Below are positions 35,031 through 63,244 of a stretch of DNA of 64,000 bases, in pieces (position 1 is the first letter of the stretch; each line of letters opens with the position of its first letter). The position numbers were made by a program, and so were the translations under genes. Under the pieces are notes generated by a model. That model did no database searches. It had not been told where the DNA came from and saw nothing but the letters and a program-made list of their open reading frames with translations. This DNA is from Chitinophagaceae bacterium (lineage in GTDB: Bacteria > Bacteroidota > Bacteroidia > Chitinophagales > Chitinophagaceae). The stretch spans positions 68,227 to 132,226 of the forward strand of contig JAACZQ010000001.1 in the NCBI GenBank assembly GCA_009996675.1. The letters run 5' to 3'.

Positions 35031-35479
35031 GTAGGGTTAGGCTGCCTCCCACGGTTCATGTTACCAAATTGTTACCCCGGCAGTAAGGGGGAGCGAATAT
35101 GGGATAGAAAATCTTGTTAAGAAAATTTTTTTCTGGCATTTTTCATCCACAGCAATTCACAGTTCCACGCAGGTTATACACCGCTCCATGCACACAATTT
35201 ACTAAGGTTATCCCCCAAAATCAAAAGTTTTCCGCCAACTGTACCCGGAAATGCACAATTGTCTGTGCAGAAAGAATTTCCCGGAAAACAGGGCCTGAAT
35301 TGGGTATTTGTTGTATCTGGTAGGGGATCTTGCTTGAGGCGATTCAGGTAAATAAATGTGAAAACTGTGTGGTTGGAAGTTGGAGACTGAGGGCTTTCTT
35401 TCACATTTGCCCTTTCACCTAAAACGATTGGTCCAACGATGCAACAATGGCTGTAGCACGTTGGAGGTCCGGGCCATTC

Positions 35480-35514
35480 TTTTCACCTTTCACCTTTCCC
35501 TTTTCCCTTCTCCC
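35480..35514. repeat. Heptad-periodic repeat (TTTTCAC CTTTCAC CTTTCCC TTTTCCC TTCTCCC)
   Basis: Five consecutive degenerate 7-mers with exact period 7. Confidence 0.75.
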
Positions 35515-35522
35515 ATATTCCG

Positions 35523-35530
35523 TACTTTTG
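35523..35530 (+). promoter_or_regulatory. Bacteroidota -7 element (TAnnTTTG) for pheT
   Basis: TACTTTTG upstream of ATG 35554. Confidence 0.5.
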
Positions 35531-40688: not shown

Positions 40689-41048
40689 ATGATAAATTTT
40701 AAAAAATTGAAAGTATGGCAATTGGGGTTTGATATTGCGAGGGAATGTTATGGTTTAGTCGCATTTTATCCCGGTGATGAACGATTTGTTTTGAAAAACC
40801 AGATCACCAGATCTGCCATTTCAATCCCTGCTAACATAGCCGAAGGCAGCAGCCGAAAGAGTACAAAAGAATATGCCCATTTTCTGGAAATCTCGCTCGG
40901 GTCAAGCTATGAATTGGAAACCCATTTGCTATTAGGGGAAGCCTTAGGGTATGGTGATCTAAATAAAACAAAATCAATACTTTACGACCTAAATACAGAG
41001 CAAAAAATGCTTCTTTCCCTTATCAATAAAATTAAAAATTCCTTCTAG
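40689..41048 (+). CDS. Four-helix bundle protein (S23/IVP family)
   Basis: FKKLKVWQLGFDIARECYGLV...RSAISIPANIAEGSSRKSTKEYAHFLEISLGSSYELETHLLL. Confidence 0.95.
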   Translation: MINFKKLKVWQLGFDIARECYGLVAFYPGDERFVLKNQITRSAISIPANIAEGSSRKSTKEYAHFLEISLGSSYELETHLLLGEALGYGDLNKTKSILYDLNTEQKMLLSLINKIKNSF

Positions 41049-41083
41049 GAGCGAGTAGCTGGAAGCTAGAAGCTAAAAACTTT
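41049..41083. repeat. Heptad repeat, right arm (GAGCGAG TAGCTGG AAGCTAG AAGCTAA AAACTTT)
   Basis: Period 7, inverted relative to 40597-40631, starts directly after the stop codon. Confidence 0.75.
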
Positions 41084-46261: not shown

Positions 46262-47673
<1,412 letters not shown>

Positions 47674-59331: not shown

Positions 59332-59349
59332 GGTGTTGTTTTTTTAGCC

Positions 59350-59421
59350 AGTAGTGAGTAGTCAGTAGTGAGTATGTTGTTACCTATGGCAATACATTTT
59401 ACTTACTGCTCACTACTCAGT
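59350..59421. repeat. Oppositely oriented heptad arrays at the 3' end of the MFS gene
   Basis: AGTAGTG AGTAGTC AGTAGTG AGTATGT versus ACTTACT GCTCACT ACTCAGT. Confidence 0.75.
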
Positions 59422-60752
59422 TCTTCCTCGGTCAGCACCACTTTCATACGCATAGTGGCTATTGCTGCCAGTAATAAAAGTACCGCAGCAAAAAGAATCG
59501 CCCGTGAAGGATCATCTCCCAGCAAATGTTTATAGATGTATCCGAATGAAAGGGTTTGTAGAATCATGGGCACAACAATCATCATATTAATGATCCCCAT
59601 GTATACCCCGTATTTTTCTTTGGGGATACTACCTACGACCATAATATAAGGCACCCCCATCATGCTGGCCCATGCAATACCAAAACCAATCATAGGCAGG
59701 AATAGCCAATAACGATCCTGTATCTGCGGCAGAATGAAAAGTGAAATGGATGCCAGTAATAAACAAACCACATGTACCCGTTTGGCGGTAAATTTCCTGG
59801 CCATACTTACCAATATAAAAGCAGAAAGAAACGTAACGATATTATAAAACCCGTTTACCAAACCAGTCCAGCCAACTGCTTCTTCGTATAATTTCGGATT
59901 GGCTTCAGCAGTAGTGCCCCAAACCGATTTGGCGATGCTATGTGAAATAAACTGCCAGTAACAAAACATGGCATACCATTGAAACAGGTACACCAGTGCC
60001 AATTGCCATAGTGTTTTAGGCATACCGGAGATGGCGGTTATTATTTCCCGGAATGGGGTTAAAATACCCCGGTGCTCTGCGCGTAAATGAGCCAGTTCTT
60101 CGGGCGTGGGTGGTATTTCTGGCGTTTTGTAAACAGACCAGGCAACCGATACAATGGAACATAGGGCGCCAACGAAAAATGAACCATAGACCCAATAAGG
60201 AATACCAGGCTGTCCATCATCGGTTACAGATTCACCGGTAATGATTTTTTGGAAAAAGAATAAAGAAAGGTTCGCGAGGGTAATACCCAGGCCGGTAAAA
60301 AAACTCTGCGTAAGAAACCCCATGGCACGCTGACTGGCGGGAAGTTTGTCGGCAATAAAAGCCCGGTAAGGTTCCATGGCCGTATTGTTGGCTGCATCAA
60401 GAATCCATAATAAACCAACAGCCATCCAGAGTGCTCTGCTGAAAGGGAAAGCAAAAAGACAAAGACTGCAAAAAATGGCCCCGATCAGAAAATATGGTTT
60501 TCTCCGGCCCCAGCGGGGATGCCAGGTTTTATCACTCAAAGCACCGATAATGGGTTGAATTAATAAGCCGGTCATGGGACCGGCGAGATTCAGCAGGGGC
60601 AGGTCTTCCGGTTTGGCATGTAAGAAACTGTATAACGGATTAACAGCGGTTTGCTGCAAACCAAAACTGTACTGGATGCCAAAGAACCCGACATTCATAT
60701 TAATGATCTGCCAGAAACTCAGGCGTGGTTTACTCAATTGCATGGCAAGCAT
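59403..60752 (-). CDS. MFS sugar transporter (SLC45-like sucrose/maltose type)
   Basis: GPMTGLLIQPIIGALSDKTWHPRWGRRKPYFLIGA. Confidence 0.9.
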   Translation of the reverse strand: MLAMQLSKPRLSFWQIINMNVGFFGIQYSFGLQQTAVNPLYSFLHAKPEDLPLLNLAGPMTGLLIQPIIGALSDKTWHPRWGRRKPYFLIGAIFCSLCLFAFPFSRALWMAVGLLWILDAANNTAMEPYRAFIADKLPASQRAMGFLTQSFFTGLGITLANLSLFFFQKIITGESVTDDGQPGIPYWVYGSFFVGALCSIVSVAWSVYKTPEIPPTPEELAHLRAEHRGILTPFREIITAISGMPKTLWQLALVYLFQWYAMFCYWQFISHSIAKSVWGTTAEANPKLYEEAVGWTGLVNGFYNIVTFLSAFILVSMARKFTAKRVHVVCLLLASISLFILPQIQDRYWLFLPMIGFGIAWASMMGVPYIMVVGSIPKEKYGVYMGIINMMIVVPMILQTLSFGYIYKHLLGDDPSRAILFAAVLLLLAAIATMRMKVVLTEEELSSEQ

Positions 60753-60906
60753 TTGTTGATCAGGAAATCAGCCAATCTCCTTCTAATATAATTCTCTTTT
60801 ACCTTGTTCCTGGTATTTGTGCCGCGAAAAACCGGCAGAAAACGTTTGCAGTGGGAAAATACTAACACAATAGTGCTTTGCCCAGGTGTAACAGCGGAGG
60901 GTTGAT

Positions 60907-61048
60907 GTCAGATCTCAGATATCAGATCTTTGATTTTTTGATCTTTTGATTTCTTGATTGAATGAAGTGAGTAGTCAGTAAGCATACCTAACACCTAATA
61001 CCCAATACGCCAACACGCTAACGGCCACCTCCAGGTCAGATCTCAGAT
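60907..61048. repeat. Heptad/octad repeat island, left arm of long inverted repeat
   Basis: GTCAGAT CTCAGAT ATCAGAT CTTTGAT TTTTTGAT CTTTTGAT TTCTTGAT; 60988-61048 inverted match to 62018-62079. Confidence 0.85.
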
Positions 61049-61209
61049 ATTAGATATTAGGAATGGTGTACGGCGTTGGGTTACTGATGATCCTGATGCT
61101 GTATACCATTCTTCGTTTTCAGCGGAATTTCAATCATGCTGATTATTAAACACTTATGCGATGAGGCGGTTTTATCCTTTTTATAAGGATTGATAATGAT
61201 TCCTATATG

Positions 61210-61308
61210 GTATGTATATGGATACCCAAGGTATACCCTTTAGATACCCAAGGTATACCCAATCGTATATATTTAGATACCCAATCGTATGTATTTAGAT
61301 GCCCTTGG
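61210..61308. repeat. Phased 11-bp tandem array (9 units)
   Basis: GTATGTATATG GATACCCAAGG TATACCCTTTA GATACCCAAGG TATACCCAATC GTATATATTTA GATACCCAATC GTATGTATTTA GATGCCCTTGG, no indels. Confidence 0.85.
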
Positions 61309-61433
61309 ATATGTTCAGGTCAGGGGTGCTGGCTGGGAGCCCCTTGCAAAGCCGGTAATATTCAGTAAATTGTATTGGAGCATCCGGATAATCCGGTTGT
61401 TTATACCTCAATAACCCTCCTTAAACCCACACC

Positions 61434-61856
61434 ATGAAAAACAGGCTATTCCTCTTGCTTTGTATGGCTTTACTGGTGCTGATCAGTTGCCAGACCCAAC
61501 AAAAACAGACTCCGTTGCCGGAAGCCGGCTTGTATAAGATTTCAATTTTGTATCCGGGTGGGGCAGGAAAAACCTTTGATATGGACTATTACCGGCAGCA
61601 ACACATGCCCATGGTTGCCGGCTTCCTGGGTAAAAATCTGCAATTGTATGAGATAGATAAAGGCGTGTCGGGCAGAACACCTAAGGATAGTGTACCTTTT
61701 GTTGCCGTCGGTTATTTTTATTGTAAAAATATGGAGGAGTACCATAAAGCCATCGCCCTTCATATTGATACCATTATGGCTGATATCAGGAAATATACCA
61801 ACATTCAACCTGTTATTCAGGTTAGTCAGATTGAAGTGATGCGGAAGGGGGAGTAG
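61434..61856 (+). CDS. EthD-family lipoprotein
   Basis: Lipobox LLVLISCQ; KISILYPGGAGKTFDMDYYRQQHMPMV. Confidence 0.82.
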   Translation: MKNRLFLLLCMALLVLISCQTQQKQTPLPEAGLYKISILYPGGAGKTFDMDYYRQQHMPMVAGFLGKNLQLYEIDKGVSGRTPKDSVPFVAVGYFYCKNMEEYHKAIALHIDTIMADIRKYTNIQPVIQVSQIEVMRKGE

Positions 61857-61951
61857 TGAGTGAGGAGTGAAAGGTGAAACGGAATTGGGGGCTCTGTGGT
61901 GAAAAATCGTAAGTGGTGAGTTGGATATCTCTTCCAACCTCCAACTTCCAA
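61852..61951. repeat. Heptad repeats abutting EthD stop codon
   Basis: AGTAGTG AGTGAGG AGTGAAA GGTGAAA (61852-61879) and CTTCCAA CCTCCAA CTTCCAA (61931-61951). Confidence 0.75.
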
Positions 61952-61990
61952 ACGAAATAACGATTCCTATATTTAAGAAATCAAAAACTC

Positions 61991-62213
61991 AGGAAATCAA
62001 GAAATCAAAGATCTGACATCTGCGATCTGACCTGGAGGTGGCTGTTAGCGCATTGGCGTGTTGGCGCATTGGGTGTTAGGGAGCCGTTAGCTATTGGCTT
62101 TTGGCCGTTGGCTAATTCCCCGTAAATCAAGAAATCAAAGATCAAGAAATCAAAGATCTGATATCTGACATCTGCGATCTGACCTAAAATCAAAAGATCA
62201 AAAAATCAAAGAT
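61991..62213. repeat. Heptad/octad repeat island, right arm of long inverted repeat
   Basis: Includes ATCTGCGATCTGACCTGGAGGTGGCTGTTAGCG...GGGTGTTAG and GCCGTTA GCTATTG GCTTTTG GCCGTTG GCTAATT. Confidence 0.85.
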
Positions 62214-62227
62214 CACCCATCTCCACC

Positions 62228-62235
62228 TACCTTTG
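62228..62235 (+). promoter_or_regulatory. -7 element (TACCTTTG)
   Basis: TAnnTTTG 5 nt upstream of ATG 62240. Confidence 0.5.
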
Positions 62236-62239
62236 CCGG

Positions 62240-62713
62240 ATGCAGCACAGTTTTGCTTACGATAAGAAAAAAACCATACAGGCCCTGCGCTATCATTTTG
62301 TACAGCGGCCCGAAATCCGTATCCTGCTGGTACTGGTGAATGTTTTTGCCATTGTGGCGGCGGTATTGTTTTATACCAAAAAAATTCGCCCCGAACCTTT
62401 TTTGCTGGGATCGCTGATCTGGCTGATCCTGATGGCCAGTTTCTGGTATTTTCTGCCCAATAATATATACAAGAAGGCCCAAACTTTTCGCGACAGCTTT
62501 ATTATCGACTTTTCTGACCAGCATATTCGTTTGGAAACTGAGCGGGGGCATACCAACTGGGACTGGAACCGGTTCAGTAAATACTTTGAGAGTCCGCATT
62601 TTTTTCACCTCTATTTCGACAGCCGGTCTTTTTTCCTGGTGCCCAAGGATGGCATGGGTGATGAGTTCCGTCATGACCTGCGGGGATTGTTGCGGAGGAA
62701 AATTGGGGGGTGA
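62240..62713 (+). CDS. YcxB-like membrane protein
   Basis: Two TMs then DSFIIDFSDQHIRLETERGHTNWDWNRFSKYFES...FFLVPKDGM. Confidence 0.78.
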   Translation: MQHSFAYDKKKTIQALRYHFVQRPEIRILLVLVNVFAIVAAVLFYTKKIRPEPFLLGSLIWLILMASFWYFLPNNIYKKAQTFRDSFIIDFSDQHIRLETERGHTNWDWNRFSKYFESPHFFHLYFDSRSFFLVPKDGMGDEFRHDLRGLLRRKIGG

Positions 62714-62719
62714 GGGGGA

Positions 62720-62814
62720 GGTTGGATGTTTGAGGTTGGAGGTTGGAGGTTGGAGGTTGGAAGTTGGAAGTTAGTTCTTACTCACTACTGACCACTCACT
62801 ACTCACTATTCACG
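62720..62814. repeat. Heptad repeats: 8 x GGTTGGA-type followed by 5 x ACTCACT-type
   Basis: GGTTGGA TGTTTGA GGTTGGA x4 AGTTGGA AGTTAGT; ACTCACT ACTGACC ACTCACT ACTCACT ATTCACG. Confidence 0.9.
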
Positions 62815-62815
62815 C

Positions 62816-63244
62816 TTACAATGTCTTCTCCATCACATAGTGGGGTATGGTAACTTCTTCAAATTCATCGCTGCAGACTTTATAACCTGCTTTTTCATAA
62901 AAACCGAGTGCGCTTTTGCGGGCGTGCATGGTGAGGCGGCGAAAACCGCGGTCGCGGGCAATATTTTCAGCAAAAGTCATCAGTACCCGGCCGATTCCTT
63001 TGCCCTGCAGGCCGGAAAAAACCGCCATCTGGCGTAAACGGACGGTTTTGGGGTCTTCCTGGGTGAGCATACAGCAGCCTTCCAGCCGATCATCGTCGAA
63101 ACAGCCCAGCAGGATATCGTCTTTTTCCTGGTCCAATTCTTCCAGGGTAAAGAACAATCCCAGGGGTTTACGCAGTATCTGGTAGCGTAAATCCACCATT
63201 TGTTTGTATTCGGGGGAGCCGTGATCAATTATTTTGAGTGCCAT
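62816..63244 (-). CDS. GNAT family N-acetyltransferase
   Basis: RLRQMAVFSGLQGKGIGRVLMTFAENIARDRGFRRLTMHARKSALGFYEKAGY. Confidence 0.94.
   Translation of the reverse strand: MALKIIDHGSPEYKQMVDLRYQILRKPLGLFFTLEELDQEKDDILLGCFDDDRLEGCCMLTQEDPKTVRLRQMAVFSGLQGKGIGRVLMTFAENIARDRGFRRLTMHARKSALGFYEKAGYKVCSDEFEEVTIPHYVMEKTL

Follow-up and report, generated by a model that had tools for sequence, protein, structure and literature searches.

The locus analysed here raises the question of whether a long inverted repeat enclosing an EthD-family gene marks the ends of a mobile element. The first-pass annotation had proposed either a non-autonomous mobile unit or a large palindrome-forming island. The window, i.e., the entire 64,000-nt stretch of DNA that was analysed, comes from the Chitinophagaceae genome referred to as G000.

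Structure of the inverted repeat and its cargo

When the left edge was aligned, with gaps, to the reverse complement of the right edge, the local score was 82; in 500 dinucleotide shuffles, scores averaged 12.0 (sd 2.1) and did not exceed 21. The inverted repeat originally described at 60988-61048 / 62018-62079 is real, and corresponds to two arm pairs, 61002-61058 / 62008-62064 (57 nt, 86% complementarity) and 60994-61021 / 62053-62080 (28 nt, 89%). The second facing pair claimed in the annotation was recovered at 60904-60946 / 62137-62179 (43 nt, 91%). Pairing was also observed between 60907-60959 and 61979-62031 (53 nt, 85%), and three core copies, rather than one, are present on the right side. 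Outward, inverted pairing stops approximately 25 nt short of either end of an insert of 1,355 bp. No Rfam element matched within 60700-62900. The arms and the DNA between them are organized as follows.

60904-60963, plus strand: left-arm core copy, GATNTCA heptamers followed by TTTGATTTTTTGATC units
60964-61032, plus strand: second part of the left arm, GTGAGTAGTCAGT and CTAACACC..CGCCAACACGCTAACGG units; recurs elsewhere, e.g., C139 and C42
61033-61064, plus strand: inner partial core of the left arm (AGGTCAGATCTCAGATATTAG)
61221-61310, no strand: 11/22-bp tandem array (GATACCCAAGGTATACCC / ATACCCAATCGTATGTATTTAG); relative on contig C58, 72% over 113 nt
61434-61856, plus strand: EthD-family lipoprotein gene, 140 aa, cargo (PF07110, TIGR02118, PDB 3bf4)
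61857-61952, no strand: heptamer-like 3' flank of the EthD gene, by direct reading (GTGAGTGAGGAGTGAAAGGTGAA; then CCAACCTCCAACTTCCAA)
61979-62031, minus strand: inner core copy of the right arm
62032-62124, minus strand: middle part of the right arm, TACGGGGAATTAGCCAACGGCCAAAAGCC..CTAACACC..GCGCCAACACGCC units; matches on contigs C9 and C115
62125-62179, minus strand: middle core copy of the right arm
62187-62214, minus strand: outer partial core of the right arm; perfect 28-nt inverted match to 60925-60952

As annotated, both an 11-bp array (61222-61262), with a 22-bp array at 61255-61304, and the EthD ORF lie between the arms. The assignment of the ORF to EthD-like lipoproteins holds: matches to Pfam PF07110 (25.9 bits, cut-off 22) and TIGR02118 (63.6 bits, NCBIfam cut-off 30.5) exceed the thresholds, PDB 3bf4 is matched with E=5e-20, and the signal of the protein, read by eye, ends in the lipobox LISC. 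The gene is single-copy, with one match in G000. No relatives were found in 40 same-genus or same-order genomes, and a homologue is present in 13 of 396 other Bacteroidota genomes, the best of which (62% identity) comes from a different family in the class; the gene was probably acquired or lost in a patchy manner. The 11/22-bp GATACCC array (61196-61312) recurs on G000 contig C58 (6436-6537), beside heptamer cores.

The segment is absent from related genomes

The genes and sites that delimit the segment are listed below.

59403-60752, minus strand: MFS transporter gene, left neighbour (Pfam PF07690, E=5e-26)
60876-60882, no strand: CTTTGCC copy 1, left candidate target duplication, located by aligning the joined flanks to empty sites of relatives
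60883-62237, no strand: inserted segment, defined by gap sizes in relatives and by alignment of the joined flanks
62231-62237, no strand: CTTTGCC copy 2, contained in TACCTTTG, the present -7 box of YcxB; candidate target duplication on the right, from the joined-flank alignment
62240-62713, plus strand: YcxB-like gene, right neighbour (Pfam PF14317, E=1.5e-10)

MFS and YcxB are divergent neighbours in 22 same-genus genomes, where the gap between them ranges from 31 to 204 bp, versus 1,487 bp in G000. Flanks joined at CTTTGCC align with the empty sites of the relatives through the YcxB start codon, restoring the layout found in these genomes. The insert, which the relatives lack, therefore corresponds to 60883-62237 (1,355 bp, counting one CTTTGCC copy). 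The empty sites that the annotation had suggested looking for in related genomes thus exist in 22 of them, and the sequence comparison indicates that the unit is a true insertion and that the MFS gene is the ancestral divergent partner of YcxB. In the explanation that we favour, a 1.36-kb segment was acquired within the divergent promoter region of MFS and YcxB.

In the relatives, a common motif, AAACG[TA]TTGC.G, lies 5' of a -7 box of the TAnnTTTG type, 3-4 nt before the YcxB start. G000 also has the motif, with TGCTTTGCC (60874-60882) after it at a comparable distance, and TACCTTTGCCGG directly precedes the ATG of the present YcxB gene. The CTTTGCC at 60876-60882 likely belongs to what remains of the -7 promoter element that YcxB had originally.

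A search for a target-site duplication gave a mixed outcome: a 7-bp CTTTGCC is present at both edges of the insert but coincides in part with a functional -7 box. This sequence is a candidate 7-bp target duplication, given that any -7 box needs TTTG, and would be compatible with a transposition-like entry.

The arms belong to a dispersed heptamer family

Across the genome, 71 matches to the left arm were counted. The family core, which reads GATNTCA-GATNTCA-GATNTCA-GATNTTT-GATTTTTT-GATCTTT-GATTTTTT-GATT, is present in 43 strong non-overlapping copies, and core copies contain no GGG. The arms are composite copies of this genome-wide, non-coding intergenic family of degenerate 7/8-nt units. Family copies occur singly beside unrelated genes and have no shared ends. 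Longer composites also recur. For instance, the right arm shares 82% identity with a copy on contig C9 across 170 nt, and 80% with one on contig C115 across 149 nt.

In sampled DNA, period-7 arrays account for 3.3% of the intergenic bases in G000 (versus 0.06% of the coding bases), 4.5% in the related genome G080 and 0 in G017, a genome of the same genus. G000 statistics refer to 0.49 Mb (contig starts taken by contig number, and the window) and to loci around core copies. Of lags 5-20, the prominent ones are 7 and 14, together with 8 and 15; other neighbouring periods are near zero. Many words occur in the genome, including GTGAGTA, TTGGAGG, TTAGGTG, GGAATAAG and GAAACAAG. The GTGAGTA word was detected in 19/147 genomes of the genus and in 12/396 of the phylum.

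Additional repeats were noticed in these surveys. Within the window, heptamer arrays of other words (TAGTTTG, AGTAGTG, GCTAGAA and CACCTTT) map at 47566-47608, 59345-59374, 41046-41081 and 35474-35524. Two other dispersed intergenic repeats of G000, one of 45 nt (CCGCCGTTGTTGTGTCGCC..; contigs C100, C3, C108 and C38) and one of 66 nt (GACTTGTCCGCCGACCGCG..; C108, C31, C84, C22, C100, C67 and C2), are mixed with heptamer arrays. The reversed GTGAGTA control pattern had up to 36 matches per genome in four Bacteroidota genomes of family f34 (G284, G434, G315 and G312); therefore, another heptamer word, similar to TGATGAG, is abundant in these genomes.

The arms are probably not transposon ends

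A non-autonomous transposon, either MITE-like or composite, with terminal inverted repeats, EthD as cargo, a trans-acting transposase and a 7-bp CTTTGCC duplication, would account for a true insertion with empty sites. CTTTGCC at both edges would fit a transposition-type target duplication, and the inverted arms, including the perfect 28-mer, reach within approximately 25 nt of both edges. Nevertheless, single copies at other loci are the better match for most of each arm. When split into 40-nt windows, 26/33 windows of the left arm and 42/52 of the right arm were closer to another locus than to the partner arm, often by margins of 10-20 bases of 40, in a comparison set (0.66 Mb enriched for core loci) that somewhat favours matches elsewhere. 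Ends belonging specifically to a mobile unit would show the opposite, and the arms are therefore not unit-specific ends; on these counts terminal inverted repeats were ruled out. The only part closest to the partner arm spans approximately 50 nt (CTAAC..CCACCTCCAGGTCAG); hence, the two arms have some local history in common.

Other observations also speak against the transposon. Copies of the family elsewhere adjoin unrelated genes and lack common ends, no second cargo was found between the same arm pair, and the arms never flank EthD elsewhere. Heptamer arrays or arm-like DNA were absent at all 11 EthD homologue loci examined in other genomes; in related genomes, the EthD locus has unrelated flanks, the finding that the annotation had named as refuting its own reading. 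The duplicate itself says little, as TTTG is expected in any -7 box and CTTTGCC occurs 15 times on both strands within 64 kb. The insert shares with MITEs a small size, inverted ends and a possible target duplication, but its ends are not unit-specific, and there is no repeated unit with fixed ends of its own. We regard the transposon as improbable, and the data do not support the non-autonomous mobile unit envisaged in the annotation, taken as bounded by terminal inverted repeats.

REP/REPIN sequences, which are associated with RAYT, are dispersed intergenic repeats that often occur as inverted pairs at gene 3' ends. The heptamer copies resemble them in being intergenic, dispersed and found in inverted pairs, which would be compatible with mobilization by a RAYT (Y1) transposase. 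In contrast, they consist of 7-nt units and lack a conserved REP hairpin. Moreover, despite many arrays, no match to Y1_Tnp (PF01797) was found in the G000 assembly, which is 95% complete, and G126, another array-rich genome, is not among the genomes with a PF01797 match. RAYT was therefore excluded as the mover in the G000 assembly, and a REP/REPIN origin is very improbable.

Copies are polar and face each other across spacers

Leaving out the studied locus, the 5' edge is nearer to the gene in 33 of the 38 scorable intergenic cores (p=4e-6). Cores starting at most 40 nt from a gene number 27, of which 23 are at the 3' end and 4 at the 5' end of the gene; none of the 38 has its 3' edge within the same distance. 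Genes were called simply as longest ORFs, and single distances may be off. When arrays of every word are pooled, their G-rich strand is directed away from the closer gene at a ratio of 21:5 in G000 (p=0.0025) and 24:10 in G080 (p=0.024). The family is dispersed, intergenic and polar: a copy begins at a gene edge, usually just past the stop codon, and reads into the spacer.

Since copies read away from gene edges, arrays located at both edges of a spacer form an inverted repeat. The inverted repeat at the studied locus arises from such facing gene-edge copies, and no transposon is needed. The left core starts approximately 20 nt from the old -7 box, the outermost right core is approximately 26 nt from the YcxB start, and both read inward, as the polarity rule predicts. 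Strong inverted repeats (z>6) are found in 21.5% of the spacers in G080, 7.2% in G000 and 2.4% in G017. Inverted array pairs are common in such spacers, and the alternative label given to the locus, a palindrome-forming island, is a fair description. Core pairs less than 400 bp apart are inward in 9 cases, outward in 2 and direct in 16; direct pairs are as frequent as all inverted ones, which counts against the explanation that we favour.

Three heptamer near-palindromes of approximately 230 bp are present within 4 kb at a G080 locus (L161; 9954-10172, 11456-11741 and 13169-13459). Each is in a different spacer, and their right arms are nearly identical.

The same polarity could mean that heptamer arrays are selected cis elements acting at gene edges in termination, pausing or protection of mRNA 3' ends, EthD being merely located there. 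Strong proximity to stop codons in the sense direction, with 23 copies within 40 nt, is in line with this idea, as is the finding that Xanthomonas heptamers of the same polarity are mostly transcribed (PMC4692102). Arrays also occupy the same position in orthologous YcxB/GNAT spacers, though their words differ. Yet the folding of single arrays does not surpass that of shuffled sequence (z -0.4 to 1.4), the arms yielded no call of a terminator-like hairpin, and most same-genus genomes lack the arrays, as seen from the distribution of the GTGAGTA word. Selected cis elements are thus an unlikely explanation, and any effect of the arrays on transcription would be hypothetical. Intrinsic terminators in the arms were discarded on the same hairpin and folding data. 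A three-frame stop cassette, an idea suggested by the 7-nt step, was also considered; although some words have stops in every frame, GATNTCA and TTGGAGG lack this property, and the cassette therefore cannot be general.

Spacers beside YcxB carry other words and other genes in relatives

Two further features lie downstream of YcxB.

62714-62815, no strand: convergent YcxB/GNAT spacer, taken up by a pair of heptamer arrays that face each other (left, GGAGGTT; right, GTGAGTA)
62816-63244, minus strand: GNAT acetyltransferase gene (Pfam PF13673, E=4e-16)

In relatives, the orthologous YcxB/GNAT spacer features other words, the arrays being GGAATAAG-like in G080 and G099 and GAAACAAG-like in G103. 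The comparison of this spacer, in which words differ between species, covered the window and loci L197, L198, L200 and L201.

The spacer 5' of YcxB also bears heptamer arrays and other cargo in near relatives. In G103, G099 and G104 (loci L198, L200 and L202), a two-gene cassette, one gene of which resembles by eye the EF-Tu C-terminal domain, lies upstream of YcxB between direct copies of a heptamer array of approximately 130 nt. In G111, the spacer has an added PIN-type pair, named by eye from ORF sequences, and in G126 an inverted array of a third word is present without cargo. These observations hint, but do not prove, that spacers with arrays acquire genes more readily. In all three loci with the two-gene cassette, the direct array copies include the -7 box.

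Comparison with known heptamer repeats

The GGGNATC heptameric repeats of Xanthomonas and Nostoc are degenerate 7-nt tandem units, intergenic and genome-wide (Rehm et al. 2015, PMC4692102). They lie no more than 50 bp from a stop codon, on the sense strand, or from a start codon, on the antisense strand, form about 70 facing inverted pairs per genome, are not linked to insertion sequences and were tied by the authors to G-quadruplexes; their loci are more stable than controls (PMC4692102). The family described here shares the degenerate 7-nt units, the intergenic and genome-wide distribution, the polarity at gene edges, the facing inverted pairs and the lack of a link to insertion sequences. 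The differences are that many words coexist in one genome, that the one locus studied gained a gene (other cargo being present in relatives), whereas the Xanthomonas and Nostoc loci were more stable than controls, and that the core word (GATNTCA / TTTGATT) is free of G-tracts and unable to fold into the proposed G-quadruplex. G-quadruplex folding therefore cannot be the general cause of polarity. Gene-edge polarity was already known in Xanthomonas and Nostoc for a quadruplex-forming word; here, the same polarity is seen without G-tracts.

TAACTGA heptamer repeats, described in Beggiatoaceae, cyanobacteria and some Bacteroidetes, are mostly direct, in forward orientation, and immediately precede start codons, with a single fixed word, and a role in rearrangement was suggested (MacGregor 2015, PMC4679880). 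Spacer heptamer arrays, mixed-word assemblages in some Bacteroidetes, a patchy distribution and a suggested role in rearrangement are common to both systems. In contrast, the words differ here and most copies follow stop codons.

Origin of the locus and implications

We assign a probability of roughly 0.72 to the explanation that the locus is an acquired segment whose arms are polar gene-edge heptamer copies, with array spread and EthD capture involving no dedicated transposase. Arrays would grow by 7-nt slippage, and template switching or gene conversion would carry copies from one spacer to another. The EthD gene may have entered by recombination or microhomology-mediated joining at an array site, and the arms would not be ends recognised by a recombinase.

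More tentatively, and as a proposal that we still consider doubtful, a subset of the genus may possess a process acting on DNA that places heptamer words specific to the species at gene edges in a fixed polarity, replaces the words at orthologous spacers and turns these spacers into palindromic entry points for new genes. If so, EthD would be one captured gene. The occurrence of the same polarity and inverted pairing with non-quadruplex words, in an unrelated phylum and with many words per genome, shows that the rule is not due to G-quadruplex folding and points to a shared mutational or transcription-linked origin. The facing of gene-edge copies also explains in simple terms why, in genomes of this kind, an inverted repeat flanking a gene is not to be taken for a pair of transposon ends.
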